Source of the DNA: an uncultured Pelagibacteraceae bacterium
GTDB taxonomy: Bacteria > Pseudomonadota > Alphaproteobacteria > Pelagibacterales > Pelagibacteraceae
Reading direction: 5' to 3'
Length of the DNA: 42,971 bases
Assembly (NCBI GenBank): GCA_902584915.1
Contig: CACIBQ010000005.1
Span: 1 to 42,971, forward strand
The notes under the pieces: model-generated
Database searches by the model: none
What the model was told of the DNA's origin: nothing
The model's input: the letters and a program-made list of their open reading frames with translations, nothing else
Program-made: the position numbers and the translations under genes
Part shown: in pieces, positions 2,443-33,034 of the stretch
How positions within the stretch are numbered: the first letter of the stretch is position 1
Layout: every line of letters starts with the position of its first letter

Positions 2443-3855
2443 ATGGAAAAACTAAATTTAGTTAAATCAACTTTCGATCAACTCCCAAATAATATAGAAG
2501 CTGAGCAAGCAGTTCTAGGCTCTATCTTGGTATCCAATGAAATTTTTGACGATGTTTCTCCCATAGTAAATAGTAAAAACTTTTTTGATCCAATGCATCA
2601 AAAAATTTTTTCAGCCATAGAAAAACTTATATTTAGTGGTATGTTAGCAAATCCTATAACTTTAAAAAATTTTTTTGAAAATGAGAAAGATGATTTAAAT
2701 ATTCCTGACTATTTAATTAAAATCACAAAGTTTTCATCATCATCCAGACAAACAATAGAGTATTCAAAATTAATTTATGATTTGTTTGTTAAAAGGGAAT
2801 TAATTAAAATTTCTGAAAATTTATCTTATACTGCAAAATCAAACGATTTAGATAAAGATGGTAAAACTATAATCGAAGATACAGAAAAAACTTTATTTGA
2901 TTTAGCAGAAAAAGGAAATTTTAATTCATCATTAATGAAATTTGACGAAGCTATGAAACAAACTATTGAAATGGCTTCAAATGCATACAAAAACGACGAA
3001 GGAATTGTAGGAGTCCCAACTGGTCTTACCGATCTAGATGGTAGACTTGGCGGTTTACATAAATCTGATTTAGTAATAATAGCTGGAAGACCTTCAATGG
3101 GTAAAACTGCATTGGCTACTAATATAGCATTCAACGCTGCTATAAAAATACAAGAAAGTGGAAAAAAATCTTGTATTGCATTTTTCTCTTTAGAAATGTC
3201 TTCTGAACAATTGTCCACGAGAATCATCGCTGAACAATCTAGAATAAAATCTCATGATATAAGAAGAGGTAAAATTTCTGAGGAACAATTTGACAAATTT
3301 ATTGAAACATCAAAAAATATTTCTGAACTACCGTTATATATTGATGAGACACCTGCAATATCAATAGCTGCTCTAAGTAATAGAGCTAGGAGAATAAAAA
3401 GACTTTTTGGTTTAGATTTAGTTGTTATTGACTACATTCAGCTTATGAGGGCTAATTTTGCAAGAGAAGGAAGAGTCCAAGAAATTTCAGAAATTACCCA
3501 AGGACTTAAAGCATTAGCTAAAGAACTAAGCGTTCCGGTTCTTGCTTTATCTCAGCTATCAAGAGCAGTAGAGTCAAGAGATGATAAAAAACCTCTACTT
3601 TCTGATTTAAGAGAATCAGGATCAATTGAACAAGATGCAGATGTTGTAATGTTCGTCTTCAGAGAAGCATATTATTTAAAAAATAAAGAACCAAGACCTG
3701 CAACTGTTGAACACGCCGAATGGCAAGCTAAAATGAATGAAATTTCTCATTTAGCTGAACTTCTCATTCTCAAACAAAGGCATGGTCCAACTGGTACTAT
3801 ATTGCTTGAATTTGAAGAGATGTTTACCAAATTTAAAGATCTTCAAAATTCATAA
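2443..3855 (+). CDS. dnaB: replicative DNA helicase DnaB
   Basis: This hexameric 5'-3' helicase unwinds DNA at the replication fork and loads primase. The 470-residue length is normal. The N-terminal primase-interacting domain begins at LPNNIEAEQAVLGSIL (about residues 14-29). The RecA-like domain carries Walker A GRPSMGKT at residues 215-222. A Walker B-like segment LVVIDYIQLM is near 327-336, and the DLRESGSIEQDAD motif with a later KQRHGPTG motif follows. No intein is present. It lies 67 bases after rplI, completing the usual rpsF-rpsR-rplI-dnaB cluster. Confidence 0.97.
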   Translation: MEKLNLVKSTFDQLPNNIEAEQAVLGSILVSNEIFDDVSPIVNSKNFFDPMHQKIFSAIEKLIFSGMLANPITLKNFFENEKDDLNIPDYLIKITKFSSSSRQTIEYSKLIYDLFVKRELIKISENLSYTAKSNDLDKDGKTIIEDTEKTLFDLAEKGNFNSSLMKFDEAMKQTIEMASNAYKNDEGIVGVPTGLTDLDGRLGGLHKSDLVIIAGRPSMGKTALATNIAFNAAIKIQESGKKSCIAFFSLEMSSEQLSTRIIAEQSRIKSHDIRRGKISEEQFDKFIETSKNISELPLYIDETPAISIAALSNRARRIKRLFGLDLVVIDYIQLMRANFAREGRVQEISEITQGLKALAKELSVPVLALSQLSRAVESRDDKKPLLSDLRESGSIEQDADVVMFVFREAYYLKNKEPRPATVEHAEWQAKMNEISHLAELLILKQRHGPTGTILLEFEEMFTKFKDLQNS

Positions 3856-8242: not shown

Positions 8243-8800
8243 ATGAAAAAAGTTAGCTTTACAGAAATGAAAAATGGAACAAAAGAAGATTATCTTCTTT
8301 TAGAAAAACATGAAAAAGATTTTGAAAGAAAAACTGCGGACAGAATATTAAAATTTATGTCTAGTCTTAATAGTACTCTTGAAGGTTATCAAATTTCAAG
8401 ATTAGAACATTCTTTACAAACAGCAACAAGAGCTTTCAAGAATGGGGAAAGTGAAGAAATGGTTGTCGCTGCTTTATTGCATGATATCGGAGATGAGTTT
8501 GCGCCGATGAATCATTCTCAATATGCTGCTGCAGTATTAAGACCTTATGTTTCTGAAAAAACCCATTGGATTATTGAAAAACATGGTTTATTTCAAACTT
8601 ACTATACCGCAGACCATCTAGGTGGTGATAAAAATGCAAGAGAAAAATATAAAGATCATAAATATTATAAAGATACTATAAATTTTTGTGAAAAATATGA
8701 CCAATCATCATTTGACCCAAATTATAAGTCGATGTCCTTAGAAGAATTTGAGCCAATGGTAAGAAATATTTTTTCAAGAAAACCTTTCTATCATCATTAA
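8243..8800 (+). CDS. HD-domain protein with a dinuclear-metal ligand set (possible HD oxygenase or phosphohydrolase)
   Basis: The 185-residue protein is an HD-fold metalloenzyme. A full set of six potential metal ligands is visible: His56 (RLEHSLQ), His80-Asp81 (LLHDIGD), His91 (MNHSQ), His114 (EKHG) and Asp153 (KYDQ). The H-HD-H-H-D pattern is that of dinuclear HD enzymes. The LEHSLQTA and AALLHDIG segments, with 24 residues between His56 and His80, closely resemble the diiron oxygenase PhnZ as I recall it. The Tyr and Glu used by PhnZ for substrate and iron capping, 10 and 7 residues before the first ligand, are Leu and Tyr here, so the substrate should differ. The gene starts 2 bases after purF, and its 3' end overlaps bmt by 4 bases on the other strand. 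The function is not established. Confidence 0.7.
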   Translation: MKKVSFTEMKNGTKEDYLLLEKHEKDFERKTADRILKFMSSLNSTLEGYQISRLEHSLQTATRAFKNGESEEMVVAALLHDIGDEFAPMNHSQYAAAVLRPYVSEKTHWIIEKHGLFQTYYTADHLGGDKNAREKYKDHKYYKDTINFCEKYDQSSFDPNYKSMSLEEFEPMVRNIFSRKPFYHH

Positions 8801-9855
8801 GCTTTTCCTCTGTAATCCTTTATATGCTTTGGAATACGTTTATTTTTTCCAAACATGTAATGATTGTCCATTTTTTCTCTATATTTGCTGGCAGGAACTG
8901 TTAGTCCGACTGCTTCGGCAACTTCTCTTATTAACATTGGGTTTGCTCCGCAGCATACACCTAAATAATTTATTCCTAAATCATAAGCTTCCTTTGCAAA
9001 TTGTCCAATTTCATATCTGCTACACTGCATCGGATCTAAGGCTGTGGGAAAAGTAGTTTCATGAGGAGTAGGACAACTGCATCCATTTTTATCCGGTAAA
9101 TTAAAAAAAGTAGGATGAGCTTTGGTTGTTCTATAAGTAATGGGCAATCCCGCTACATGGCATTTTAAGGATTTTCTAATCTCTTTAAGATAAGGAAGCA
9201 TTGTATTAGGCCCTCTATGACAATTCATTCCTACTACATCACCTCCCTGTTGCTCTAATTCTTTACAGGTATCAAGTATAGAAATTCCATCTCTCATGAT
9301 ATTTTGTCCATAAGGAGCTATTGTAATAACAGATGGAAGTCCACTTTCTTTCATTACTTTTAAAGCTGTATATGCTTCCTCAGCATAATAAAAAGTCTCA
9401 CCAATTAAAATATCCGCTCCTTCGTCTACTGCCCAACCAACCATTTCTCTAAACATTTTTTCAACTTCCAGCTGGGAATTTTTATCATCTTGATTCCAAA
9501 TATTTGAATTTGAAATATTTCCAGCCATTAAGTTTTTTTTTTTACCTATATGATTTGTTGCGACTTTTTTTGCAATTTTTAGTGCTGCTCTATTTAATGG
9601 TTCGAGTAATTCTTCTTTTCCAATTACTCTCATTTTTTCTCTATGGCCGTTGTAAGTAAAAGCTTGTACAATATCTGAACCTGCGTGTTGAAATTCTTTA
9701 TGTAAGTTTTCTAGTATTTCTGGATGATCCAATGATACCATTGGTACAAATTCACCAGACGCCATGTAGCCTCTTTTCTCTATTTCAAATAAAAAACCTT
9801 CGGCACAAATAACTGGTCCTTTATCTAATCTTTCTTTTAAACTTTCTTTACTCAT
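8797..9855 (-). CDS. bmt: betaine-homocysteine S-methyltransferase
   Basis: This zinc enzyme transfers a methyl group from glycine betaine, or a related donor, to homocysteine, giving methionine and dimethylglycine. The 352 residues form the homocysteine-methyltransferase TIM barrel. The three zinc-ligand cysteines are visible: Cys212 in GMNCHRG and Cys301-Cys302 in GVCCGANP. The N-terminal segment GPVICAEGFLFEIEKRGY is close to the barrel start of BHMT-like enzymes. It has one of the few strong ribosome binding sites in the window (AAAGGAGGAG, about 4 bases before ATG). Its leader holds a SAM-II and a SAM-V riboswitch, as expected for a gene repressed when S-adenosylmethionine is plentiful. 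A dimethylsulfoniopropionate or other methyl donor cannot be excluded. Confidence 0.93.
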   Translation of the reverse strand: MSKESLKERLDKGPVICAEGFLFEIEKRGYMASGEFVPMVSLDHPEILENLHKEFQHAGSDIVQAFTYNGHREKMRVIGKEELLEPLNRAALKIAKKVATNHIGKKKNLMAGNISNSNIWNQDDKNSQLEVEKMFREMVGWAVDEGADILIGETFYYAEEAYTALKVMKESGLPSVITIAPYGQNIMRDGISILDTCKELEQQGGDVVGMNCHRGPNTMLPYLKEIRKSLKCHVAGLPITYRTTKAHPTFFNLPDKNGCSCPTPHETTFPTALDPMQCSRYEIGQFAKEAYDLGINYLGVCCGANPMLIREVAEAVGLTVPASKYREKMDNHYMFGKNKRIPKHIKDYRGKA

Positions 9856-9893
9856 TTTCTCCTCCTTTTCAAATAAGAGGAGAAGAAGCTCAT
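9852..9893 (-). other. candidate 13-codon leader reading frame overlapping the bmt start
   Basis: An ATG at 9893-9891 opens a 13-codon frame (MSFFSSYLKRRRK) whose TGA stop at 9854-9852 overlaps the bmt ATG at 9855-9853. The frame stays open upstream through TTG at 9911 and ATA/ATC at 9920/9923. The last two lie 7 to 10 bases after the AAGGAG of the SAM-V element. If translated, it would couple translation to bmt and pass ribosomes through the anti-Shine-Dalgarno segment. No good Shine-Dalgarno precedes the ATG, so translation is speculative. Confidence 0.2.
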
Positions 9894-9935
9894 ATATATA
9901 AATGAGGGCAAATAAAGTATGATGCCTCTTCTCCT
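9856..9935 (-). promoter_or_regulatory. SAM-V expression platform: competing helices around the bmt ribosome binding site
   Basis: Two helices that exclude each other can be drawn. In the ON form AGGAGAAGAGGC (9935-9924) pairs with GCTTCTTCTCCT (9889-9878), 12 pairs with one G-U. In the OFF form TTCTCCTCTT (9884-9875) pairs with AGGAGGAGAA (9866-9857), 10 pairs with one G-U. The OFF helix buries the Shine-Dalgarno sequence of bmt. The first strand overlaps the AAGG that SAM-V would use in its ligand-bound pseudoknot. Ligand binding would therefore free the anti-Shine-Dalgarno strand and shut translation. The pairings are read from sequence; the mechanism is inference. Confidence 0.6.
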
Positions 9936-9970
9936 TTTTAGTGCTTTAGCAAAATGCAAGGTGCACAATA
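9931..9970 (-). ncRNA. SAM-V riboswitch aptamer
   Basis: The transcript segment contains CACCTTGCATTTTGCTAAAGC followed by AAAAAGGAG, the core I know for SAM-V riboswitches of marine alphaproteobacteria. A pseudoknot can be drawn: GTGC (9966-9963) with GCAC (9944-9941), and CCTT (9961-9958) with AAGG (9936-9933). It shares the GCTAAA element with SAM-II just upstream, as expected because the two classes have similar binding cores. Unusually, the AAGGAG is about 75 bases from the bmt ATG rather than serving as its ribosome binding site. Confidence 0.85.
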
Positions 9971-10002
9971 TGGTCAAATCACCCGGTTTTTTTTATTTTG
10001 AT

Positions 10003-10031
10003 AAAAAAAAACCACCTACTAACGCGGTGGT
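10003..10031 (-). terminator. intrinsic terminator between SAM-II and SAM-V
   Basis: ACCACC (10031-10026) pairs perfectly with GGTGGT (10016-10011) around a 9-base loop and is followed by eight T residues (10010-10003). It begins 8 bases after the SAM-II element, so SAM binding would act on transcription before RNA polymerase reaches SAM-V. The GC-rich stem stands out in this AT-rich DNA. Confidence 0.85.
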
Positions 10032-10038
10032 CGATTTT

Positions 10039-10088
10039 CGCTTTAGCAGGTTTTATATAGCGCCTGCAATTTGATATAAATCAGCGCT
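10039..10088 (-). ncRNA. SAM-II riboswitch aptamer
   Basis: The sequence fits the SAM-II consensus (GCGCTGATTTA, then ATTGCAGGCGCT, then CCTGCTAAAGCG). The H-type pseudoknot is complete: stem 1 is AGCGC (10088-10084) with GCGCT (10063-10059), and stem 2 is GCAGG (10067-10063) with CCTGC (10050-10046). These share G10063, so one end pair gives way. The A-rich third loop and the TAAAG after stem 2 are also present. It is the first control element of the bmt leader, directly followed by a terminator, and sits immediately after a promoter candidate whose start would coincide with its 5' end. Confidence 0.92.
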
Positions 10089-10116
10089 TGTTATTAAAGT
10101 ATCACAATATTAAATA
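10088..10116 (+). promoter_or_regulatory. candidate divergent promoter for the thioredoxin-domain gene
   Basis: TTGTTA at 10088-10093 and TAAATA at 10111-10116 are spaced by 17 bases on the plus strand and would serve the gene starting at 10136. They interleave with the bmt promoter on the other strand. The -10 match is weak and could be chance in AT-rich DNA. Confidence 0.25.
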
Positions 10117-10123
10117 CTTTCAA
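10096..10123 (-). promoter_or_regulatory. candidate promoter for the bmt leader
   Basis: A -35 TTGAAA (10123-10118) and a -10 TACTTT (10101-10096) are separated by 16 bases. Transcription would start near 10089, exactly at the 5' end of the SAM-II pseudoknot. That independent agreement makes it more credible than a motif match alone. It lies between the SAM-II element and the divergent gene starting at 10136. Confidence 0.5.
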
Positions 10124-32940: not shown

Positions 32941-33034
32941 GGTGAGGTGGGTGAGCTGGTTTAAACCAGGAGTTTGCTAAACTTCCGTACGTTATAATGA
33001 CGTACCGAGGGTTCGAATCCCTCCCTCACCGCCA
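32941..33034 (+). tRNA. tRNA-Ser (anticodon GCT)
   Basis: The 94-base gene folds as a serine tRNA. The acceptor stem is GGTGAGG with CCTCACC, followed by discriminator G and an encoded CCA at 33032-33034. The anticodon GCT is at 32976-32978 in loop TTGCTAA. A long variable arm, built on GTACGT with ACGTAC, identifies a class II tRNA. The T arm has GGTTCGAATCC. It reads AGC and AGT codons. The 3' CCA abuts the stop codon of the convergent transglycosylase gene with no gap. A TAGTAT 9 bases upstream may be its -10. Confidence 0.97.

Follow-up and report, generated by a model that had tools for sequence, protein, structure and literature searches.

A three-strand relay to a second Shine-Dalgarno sequence probably forms the translational stage of a tandem SAM-II/SAM-V leader before bmt in SAR11

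Tandem SAM-II/SAM-V riboswitches have been described in Pelagibacter. The bhmT gene of P. ubique is listed as preceded by such a pair in PMC2704228, and excerpts of PMC9481103 give a total of 149 tandems; in the original 120, a terminator stem always follows SAM-II and access to the ribosome site is always governed by SAM-V. The P2a helix of SAM-V is known as well, and it contains the probable Shine-Dalgarno (SD) sequence in at least 86% of SAM-V (PMC6061858), with the motif typically lying at most 10 nt from the start codon (PMC2704228). In their excerpts, the papers on the published bhmT tandem (PMC2704228, PMC9481103, PMC11508383) take the GGAG of SAM-V as the SD that SAM occludes and do not describe a relay to a second SD. 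Nor was such a relay seen in titles, abstract beginnings or passages among the literature matches listed.

We analysed a window of 42,971 nt from an uncultured Pelagibacteraceae bacterium (contig CACIBQ010000005.1), in which the leader of bmt is a 268-nt region on the minus strand (10123-9856; Table 1). The bmt product is 77% identical to the HTCC1062 protein. Along the leader, a SAM-II-type pseudoknot is followed by a terminator and its T run, then by the SAM-V aptamer and finally by about 80 nt with two alternative folds. The window is a relative of the published bhmT tandem, with the same aptamers, order and terminator before an orthologous gene, which agrees with the statement in the original prediction that this tandem was already described in Pelagibacter (PMC2704228, PMC9481103). 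Because the tandem, the terminator and the role of SAM-V are published, a two-stage switch is in itself nothing new; the novelty lies in the relay. The original prediction contained the observation and the relay; it lacked the antiterminator, the conservation, the layout in HTCC1062 and the upstream ORFs of relatives. Elsewhere in the window, positions 32941-33031 (+) hold a 91-base tRNA (53.5 bits), probably with a long variable arm.

Table 1. Coordinates of bmt and of the elements read in its leader.
Feature	Position	Strand	Basis or remark
Candidate promoter TTGAAA-N19-TTTAAT	10093..10123	(-)	10/12 match, looser search; ends 4-5 nt before SAM-II P1
SAM-II-type pseudoknot	10040..10088	(-)	sequence; RF01726 20.6 bits, below gathering
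Antiterminator, CCUGCUAAAGCG (10050-10039) with CGCGUUAGUAGG (10026-10015)	10015..10050	(-)	11/12 pairs, covariation
Intrinsic terminator, 6-pair stem and T run	10003..10031	(-)	sequence and scan
SAM-V aptamer	9928..9993	(-)	RF01826, 68.4 bits
Tail strand T (GGAGAAGAGGC-A-UCAUA)	9918..9934	(-)	SD position of ordinary SAM-V leaders; here anti-anti-SD
Anti-SD strand X	9875..9894	(-)	9894-9879 pairs T (helix A); 9883-9875 pairs SD2 (helix B)
SD2, second, probable true SD of bmt	9858..9866	(-)	GGAGGAG 9865-9859, in helix B
bmt/bhmT	8797..9855	(-)	PF02574, homocysteine S-methyltransferase family

The predicted SAM-II pseudoknot was recognised by inspection beside the HTCC1062 element, not by a statistic: P1 pairs AGCGC with GCGCU (10088-10084:10063-10059), P2 pairs GCAG with CUGC (10067-10064:10049-10046), and the conserved strand UGCUAAAGC is present, reaching 10040. 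All parts of this H-type pseudoknot are there, though the RF01726 match (10093-10033) scores 20.6 bits against a gathering threshold of 44 and a SAM_alpha match (10097-10022) scores 22.0 bits against 36. The published HTCC1062 SAM-II likewise gave no SAM-II match at E<=1. The terminator expected after SAM-II has the stem ACCACC/GGUGGU (10031-10011) and nine consecutive T, counting the last stem base; the scan found one terminator compared with 0.2 expected. The promoter placed at the 5' end of SAM-II is the weakest item: the looser search returned it, whereas the strict scan gave none on the minus strand of the leader. This candidate draws its support from the group level, where the best promoter score upstream of SAM-II averages 9.43 over 67 leaders compared with 8.25 (sd 0.78) after shuffling.

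SAM-II and the terminator share an antiterminator, a helix that CCUGCUAAAGCG of SAM-II can form with the loop and the 3' arm of the terminator; it is mutually exclusive with both SAM-II P2 and the terminator. Among 34 distinct types, which represent 70 of 78 leaders (8 were dropped for want of a terminator match), 347 of 408 cells are paired compared with 321.7 (sd 4.49) in shuffles, a count that scores bulged types at 8/12 and keeps at least one mispicked type (L030). Pairing as high as the real one occurred in 0 of 5000 partner shuffles, in a test where related types are not independent. Whole blocks are exchanged between types, for example AAAGCG:CGCUUU and AAAUAG:CUAUUU. The MFE fold of HTCC1062 RNA 1-110 includes the antiterminator helix, with 12 pairs. 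In excerpts of PMC11508383, the linker C68-C110 silences SAM-II in a manner that is not fully explained. The antiterminator helix could explain this silent SAM-II in the published long HTCC1062 RNA, and a published puzzle thereby becomes a testable antiterminator prediction.

The SAM-V core is the same aptamer as that of RF01826 (PMC6061858): the match at 9993-9928 reaches 68.4 bits, above the gathering threshold of 41, and the CC and GG positions of P2a are there. Placed in the window by sequence, P2a would join C9973 C9972 to G9934 G9933. Similar to the estimate in the original prediction, GGAG lies 75 nt from the bmt ATG, and the typical spacing of at most 10 nt is not seen here; since this distance is not obligatory, the spacing marks a SAM-V variant. 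In usual SAM-V the SD is inside P2a (PMC6061858), whereas the window has a distant GGAG and a second SD ahead of the ATG. That ordinary SAM-V carries the ribosome site itself, as stated in the original prediction, is borne out by that source and by our family and order searches, in which the gene start lies 4-8 nt past GGAG in 38 of 41 SAM-V loci (among them L083, which we checked and found to precede a metY-type O-acetylhomoserine sulfhydrylase). The other three are L108, which has a like start where the contig ends, bhmT of HTCC1062 (L102), which has the relay, and L106, with no gene behind. At L106:1400-1620, a SAM-II/SAM-V leader with an anti-SD but without SD2 or a long ORF behind it is an apparent relic of bmt loss.

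Downstream of the aptamer, the anti-SD strand X has two partners. Helix A joins T (9934-9918) to UAUGAGCUUCUUCUCC (9894-9879) with 16 pairs and one bulge; it belongs to the MFE fold (-25.0), in which SD2 is free. Forcing the first two tail Gs to remain unpaired redirects the anti-SD to SD2 (-23.4), and helix B forms between 9883-9875 and 9866-9858. Both exclusive helices of the original prediction are present on a common strand, but the sizes given there need revision: the 12-pair helix has 16 pairs and a bulge, and the 10-pair helix has nine in the constrained fold, or ten counting the next pair. Helix B covers SD2, whose GGAG sits 6 nt ahead of the bmt ATG, and the claim that one helix buries the ribosome site holds. 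Nascent folds modelled for the window have helix A fully formed before transcription reaches SD2; the 77-nt MFE briefly buries SD2, and the final fold frees it again. By eye, a possible third helix was also seen between the 3' part of the tail and CCCUC in the loop.

Riboswitches that act on translation through anti-SD and anti-anti-SD strands are well known, TPP thiM being an example. As in these, one strand in the window can pair either upstream or with the SD, and we find two exclusive helices with one common strand, one of them burying the SD. Unlike the thiM type, the upstream partner in the window is the aptamer's own SD position, coupled via two pseudoknot pairs.

Pairing of both helices is conserved. 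We used 38 relay leaders (35 distinct) taken from the list of GGAG-ATG distances, leaving out L012, whose contig begins inside the relay, and L074 and L078-L080. Proximal helix A is paired in 310 of 315 cells (98%) and helix B in 272 of 280 (97%; 35 distinct leaders), counts that are anchored on GGAG and CTCC and lean slightly to pairing because X is anchored by motif. Registers slid by one to three positions gave 64-85% for helix A and 58-84% for helix B. For each helix, one of 5000 partner shuffles reached the real pairing (means 304.2 for A and 266.6 for B), a test inflated by kinship. Variation in the proximal helices is mostly of the G-U type and mostly at a single position. At pair 7 of T-X-S, the three strands change together, with G-C-G in 8 of the 35 leaders, A-U-A in 21 and mixed combinations in 6.

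The distal half of helix A is a more independent test, because it is not tied to the SD sequence. There, 21 of 26 clusters have a native partner that beats those of other clusters (p 1.7e-4), with a mean of -6.41 compared with -4.28 kcal/mol for swapped partners. Coarser clusters gave 18 of 23 (p 5.5e-4); four loose clusters were uninformative (p 0.63). In L197, from another genus, an 11-pair distal stem is kept with a different sequence. The compensatory changes by which the original prediction could be judged are thus seen across the 38 leaders, in that pairing is kept and distal stems differ yet are paired in most clusters, with few proximal events and with a distal stem no better than swaps in 5 of the 26 clusters (L028, L064, L066, L059 and HTCC1062). 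A MAFFT/RNAalifold consensus of the 38 relay regions, in which T and X were misaligned, did not recover helix A and gave six helix B-like pairs.

We modelled the effect of SAM solely by holding the two tail Gs unpaired. With this constraint the probability that SD2 is open, P(SD2 open), falls in 38 of 38 leaders, from a median of 0.361 to 0.0002. The median fall is about 2,500-fold (10^3.40), compared with about 2-fold (10^0.26) in 570 controls in which the middle was shuffled and both ends were kept; 3 of these 570 matched the real median and 217 the weakest real case. At 37°C, P(SD2 open) is at most 0.01 in 37 of 38 leaders with GG held, and L024 retains 0.195. Holding two loop bases instead of GG had no effect on SD2. 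The response has the same direction in all 24 leaders of genera g4 and g9, a set of 10 bmt and 13 metY-like leaders from g4 and one bmt leader from g9 that includes many close relatives.

In these models, the two folds are near balance in most leaders. Without SAM, the number of leaders (out of 38) with a P(SD2 open) of at least 0.2 is 25 at 37°C, 14 at 20°C and 11 at 12°C, and the median is 0.121 at 20°C and 0.053 at 12°C; in bmt leaders of g4, P(SD2 open) is only 0.009-0.064. The unconstrained MFE fold leaves SD2 free (at most 2/8 paired) in 24 of 38. Since the modelled open fraction falls with temperature, the order of synthesis probably matters, and the ON state may depend on the sequence of folding steps or on a ribosome.

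Judged from its sequence, the relay is not peculiar to the window, and HTCC1062 has the same layout. A bmt protein scan with one genome per species (84,980 species) found 298 relatives, and we retained the best 80; as best matches, the loci do not amount to a census. Together with 20 further loci and the window, these 80 make 101 rows (93 different sequences, some of the 20 repeating loci). The leaders fall mainly into two length classes, with 3-10 nt (direct) or 64-75 nt (relay) from GGAG to ATG. The 101 rows comprise 48 relay, 37 direct, 11 without a recognised SAM-V and 5 other leaders. This count includes L027, L046, L048 and L076 from the 80, in which no start was found and which stand outside the 38-leader analyses; L032, L033, L035, L036, L039, L040 and L042 (27-28 nt) are classed as direct on an in-frame ATG 9-10 nt after GGAG. 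On a quick protein tree of the 101 rows (LG+G4, 27 of 90 inner branches weak), at least nine changes between relay and direct are counted once the 16 rows of the two remaining classes are excluded, so the platform seems to have been gained, lost or exchanged repeatedly in bmt evolution.

A second relay gene groups with O-acetylhomoserine sulfhydrylases (metY type), and we call it metY-like. Its 31 loci comprise 13 with the relay layout and 18 direct ones, and in the 13 relay leaders the controlled SD serves a small ORF overlapping the metY-like start, not that gene itself. The g4 loci (L152-L154, L165, L167, L168, L170, L171, L176, L179-L182) carry the SAM-V relay and, behind it, a short first ORF. 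A second ORF of 14-15 codons (like MNETIRETIRGKING) comes next; it is conserved, and its stop codon overlaps the start of the metY-like gene. These tiny ORFs form a chain and are perhaps coupled.

Other arrangements were noticed along the way. In L069 and L075 (also L201 and L202), a 45- or 48-codon ORF with its ATG 3 nt after the SAM-V GGAG ends just inside bmt, and the bmt ATG is 127-136 nt from GGAG. Upstream of the bmt match in L074, L078, L079 and L080, which are SAR86-named loci and one other, a SAM-V/SAM-II-like core (GTGATTTGATCC...GCTAAAACGGAAA) that the tail motif we used had missed is followed by a GGAAA:UUUCC hairpin. L199 and L200 (genus g2) have bmt with seemingly only SAM-II and a terminator, and GGAG directly after the T run. 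Near or past the end of bmt, L009 has two sub-threshold alpha_tmRNA matches (2495-2609 and 3276-3341), perhaps a two-piece tmRNA.

Taken together, we consider it likely that the leader is a two-stage OFF switch for SAM, acting on transcription by SAM-II and on translation by a three-strand relay. In the first stage, SAM would hold the CUGCUAAAGC strand in the SAM-II pseudoknot and the terminator would form; without SAM, this strand would form the antiterminator with the loop and the 3' arm of the terminator, and the polymerase would read on. In the second stage, without SAM, the SAM-V tail (GGAG...) would pair with X in the long helix before SD2 is transcribed, leaving SD2 open. With SAM, the SAM-V pseudoknot would capture two tail Gs in P2a, X would leave the tail and pair with SD2, and bmt would be untranslated. 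P2a, with its two base pairs, would have to act before the 16-pair helix forms. The SAM-V aptamer, the terminator, the antiterminator and the two relay helices with their conservation are read from sequence and comparison; that SAM binding flips the folds, in which direction and to what extent in the cell, is what we infer from them. Conservation and covariation across leaders argue for the idea, already in the original prediction, that the ligand signal is relayed via an anti-SD strand, an exchange that SAM would drive. We also count in favour of the two-stage switch that HTCC1062 bhmT is induced under sulfur limitation, with mRNA up 33.8-fold and protein up 3.6-fold (PMC5069961).

In HTCC1062 (G026), homology and the published intergenic limits place the bhmT start 69 nt after the SAM-V GGAG. 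According to three oligos in PMC11508383, the published 'full-length' RNA 1-177 ends at ...GGAGAAAAGAGGCCTATG and stops before the anti-SD, so both anti-SD and SD2 are absent from it. The AUG at its end is out of frame with bhmT and 58 nt upstream. The best-studied tandem SAM riboswitch thus gets a ribosome site other than that in the probed RNA. Another SAM-V of HTCC1062 (57.6 bits) lies just downstream of bhmT (L205:14-78 (-), which is G026:C1:1126163-1126227); a separate count gave four SAM-V matches in this genome.

HTCC1062 also has an upstream ORF, with its ATG at +11 from GGAG, 23 codons and a stop 14 nt inside bhmT. Such ORFs bear on the strongest rival, itself unlikely, in which SAM-V occludes its own GGAG serving a short ORF and translation of this ORF through the anti-SD opens SD2; the ORF would stop near the bmt start and the helices would be a barrier melted by the ribosome. 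Of the 38 relay leaders, 13 have a start codon (11 ATG, 2 TTG) at a distance of 4-12 nt past the GGAG of SAM-V, and 13 of these 13 ORFs, HTCC1062 included, cross the anti-SD. In all 10 bmt leaders of g4 examined, an ATG at +6 opens an ORF of 20-21 codons that overlaps the start of bmt; the end of the g4 peptide (RFHLSPV) is largely conserved, in a genus where an RNA-only relay is weakly ON, and the same stretch also lies over the helices. The other 25 relay leaders, the window among them, have no such start codon, and the window has ATA where four close relatives have ATG. Among the 13 metY-like leaders of g4, two have a first ORF of just 2 and 4 codons, yet helix B and the GG effect stay. We tested the upstream ORF as a general mechanism and keep it as a real rival or add-on where such ORFs exist, a strong one in g4. 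In our reading, the RNA exchange is the core that the leaders have in common, and some lineages have added the ORFs to it.

Slightly less probable still is that the 30S subunit binds at the GGAG of SAM-V when SAM is low and is passed on from there to the distant AUG. There is precedent in Sinorhizobium meliloti metA, whose start reportedly depends on an SD located 74 nt upstream, within the SAM-II riboswitch (PMC9373788). In that system a SAM aptamer likewise controls a start far past its SD, but excerpts of the paper propose 30S loading at the riboswitch SD and do not describe an anti-SD exchange with a second SD. Against such standby loading in SAR11, all 38 relay leaders have a second SD at 4-7 nt from the ATG, and the pairing of tail and anti-SD covaries in a distal stem that standby loading does not need. 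Least probable, and to our minds improbable, is that SAM acts at termination only, the downstream helices being a constitutive hairpin that serves RNA stability or a basal level of expression: terminator and antiterminator could switch alone and the ligand effect on the relay is a predicted one, but such a hairpin needs neither two alternative partners of one strand, near balance in relatives, nor a link to the two Gs bound by SAM-V.

It is tempting to speculate more broadly, at about even confidence, that SAM-V of SAR11 is a modular trigger in which capture through two base pairs in a pseudoknot starts a three-strand exchange and the anti-SD moves from the retired SD of the aptamer to a second SD. 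The platform would have come and gone repeatedly in bmt and would also stand before the metY-like gene, sometimes with tiny coupled ORFs, and the P. ubique tandem would have been probed without its real expression platform. If our reading of the two-stage switch holds, the leader is a compact natural three-strand relay whose output is decided by two bases. MetE and MetH are absent from SAR11, and bmt is thought to link glycine betaine use with methionine synthesis (PMC12478193); because of this presumed coupling, control of bmt matters for sulfur and carbon use in the ocean.
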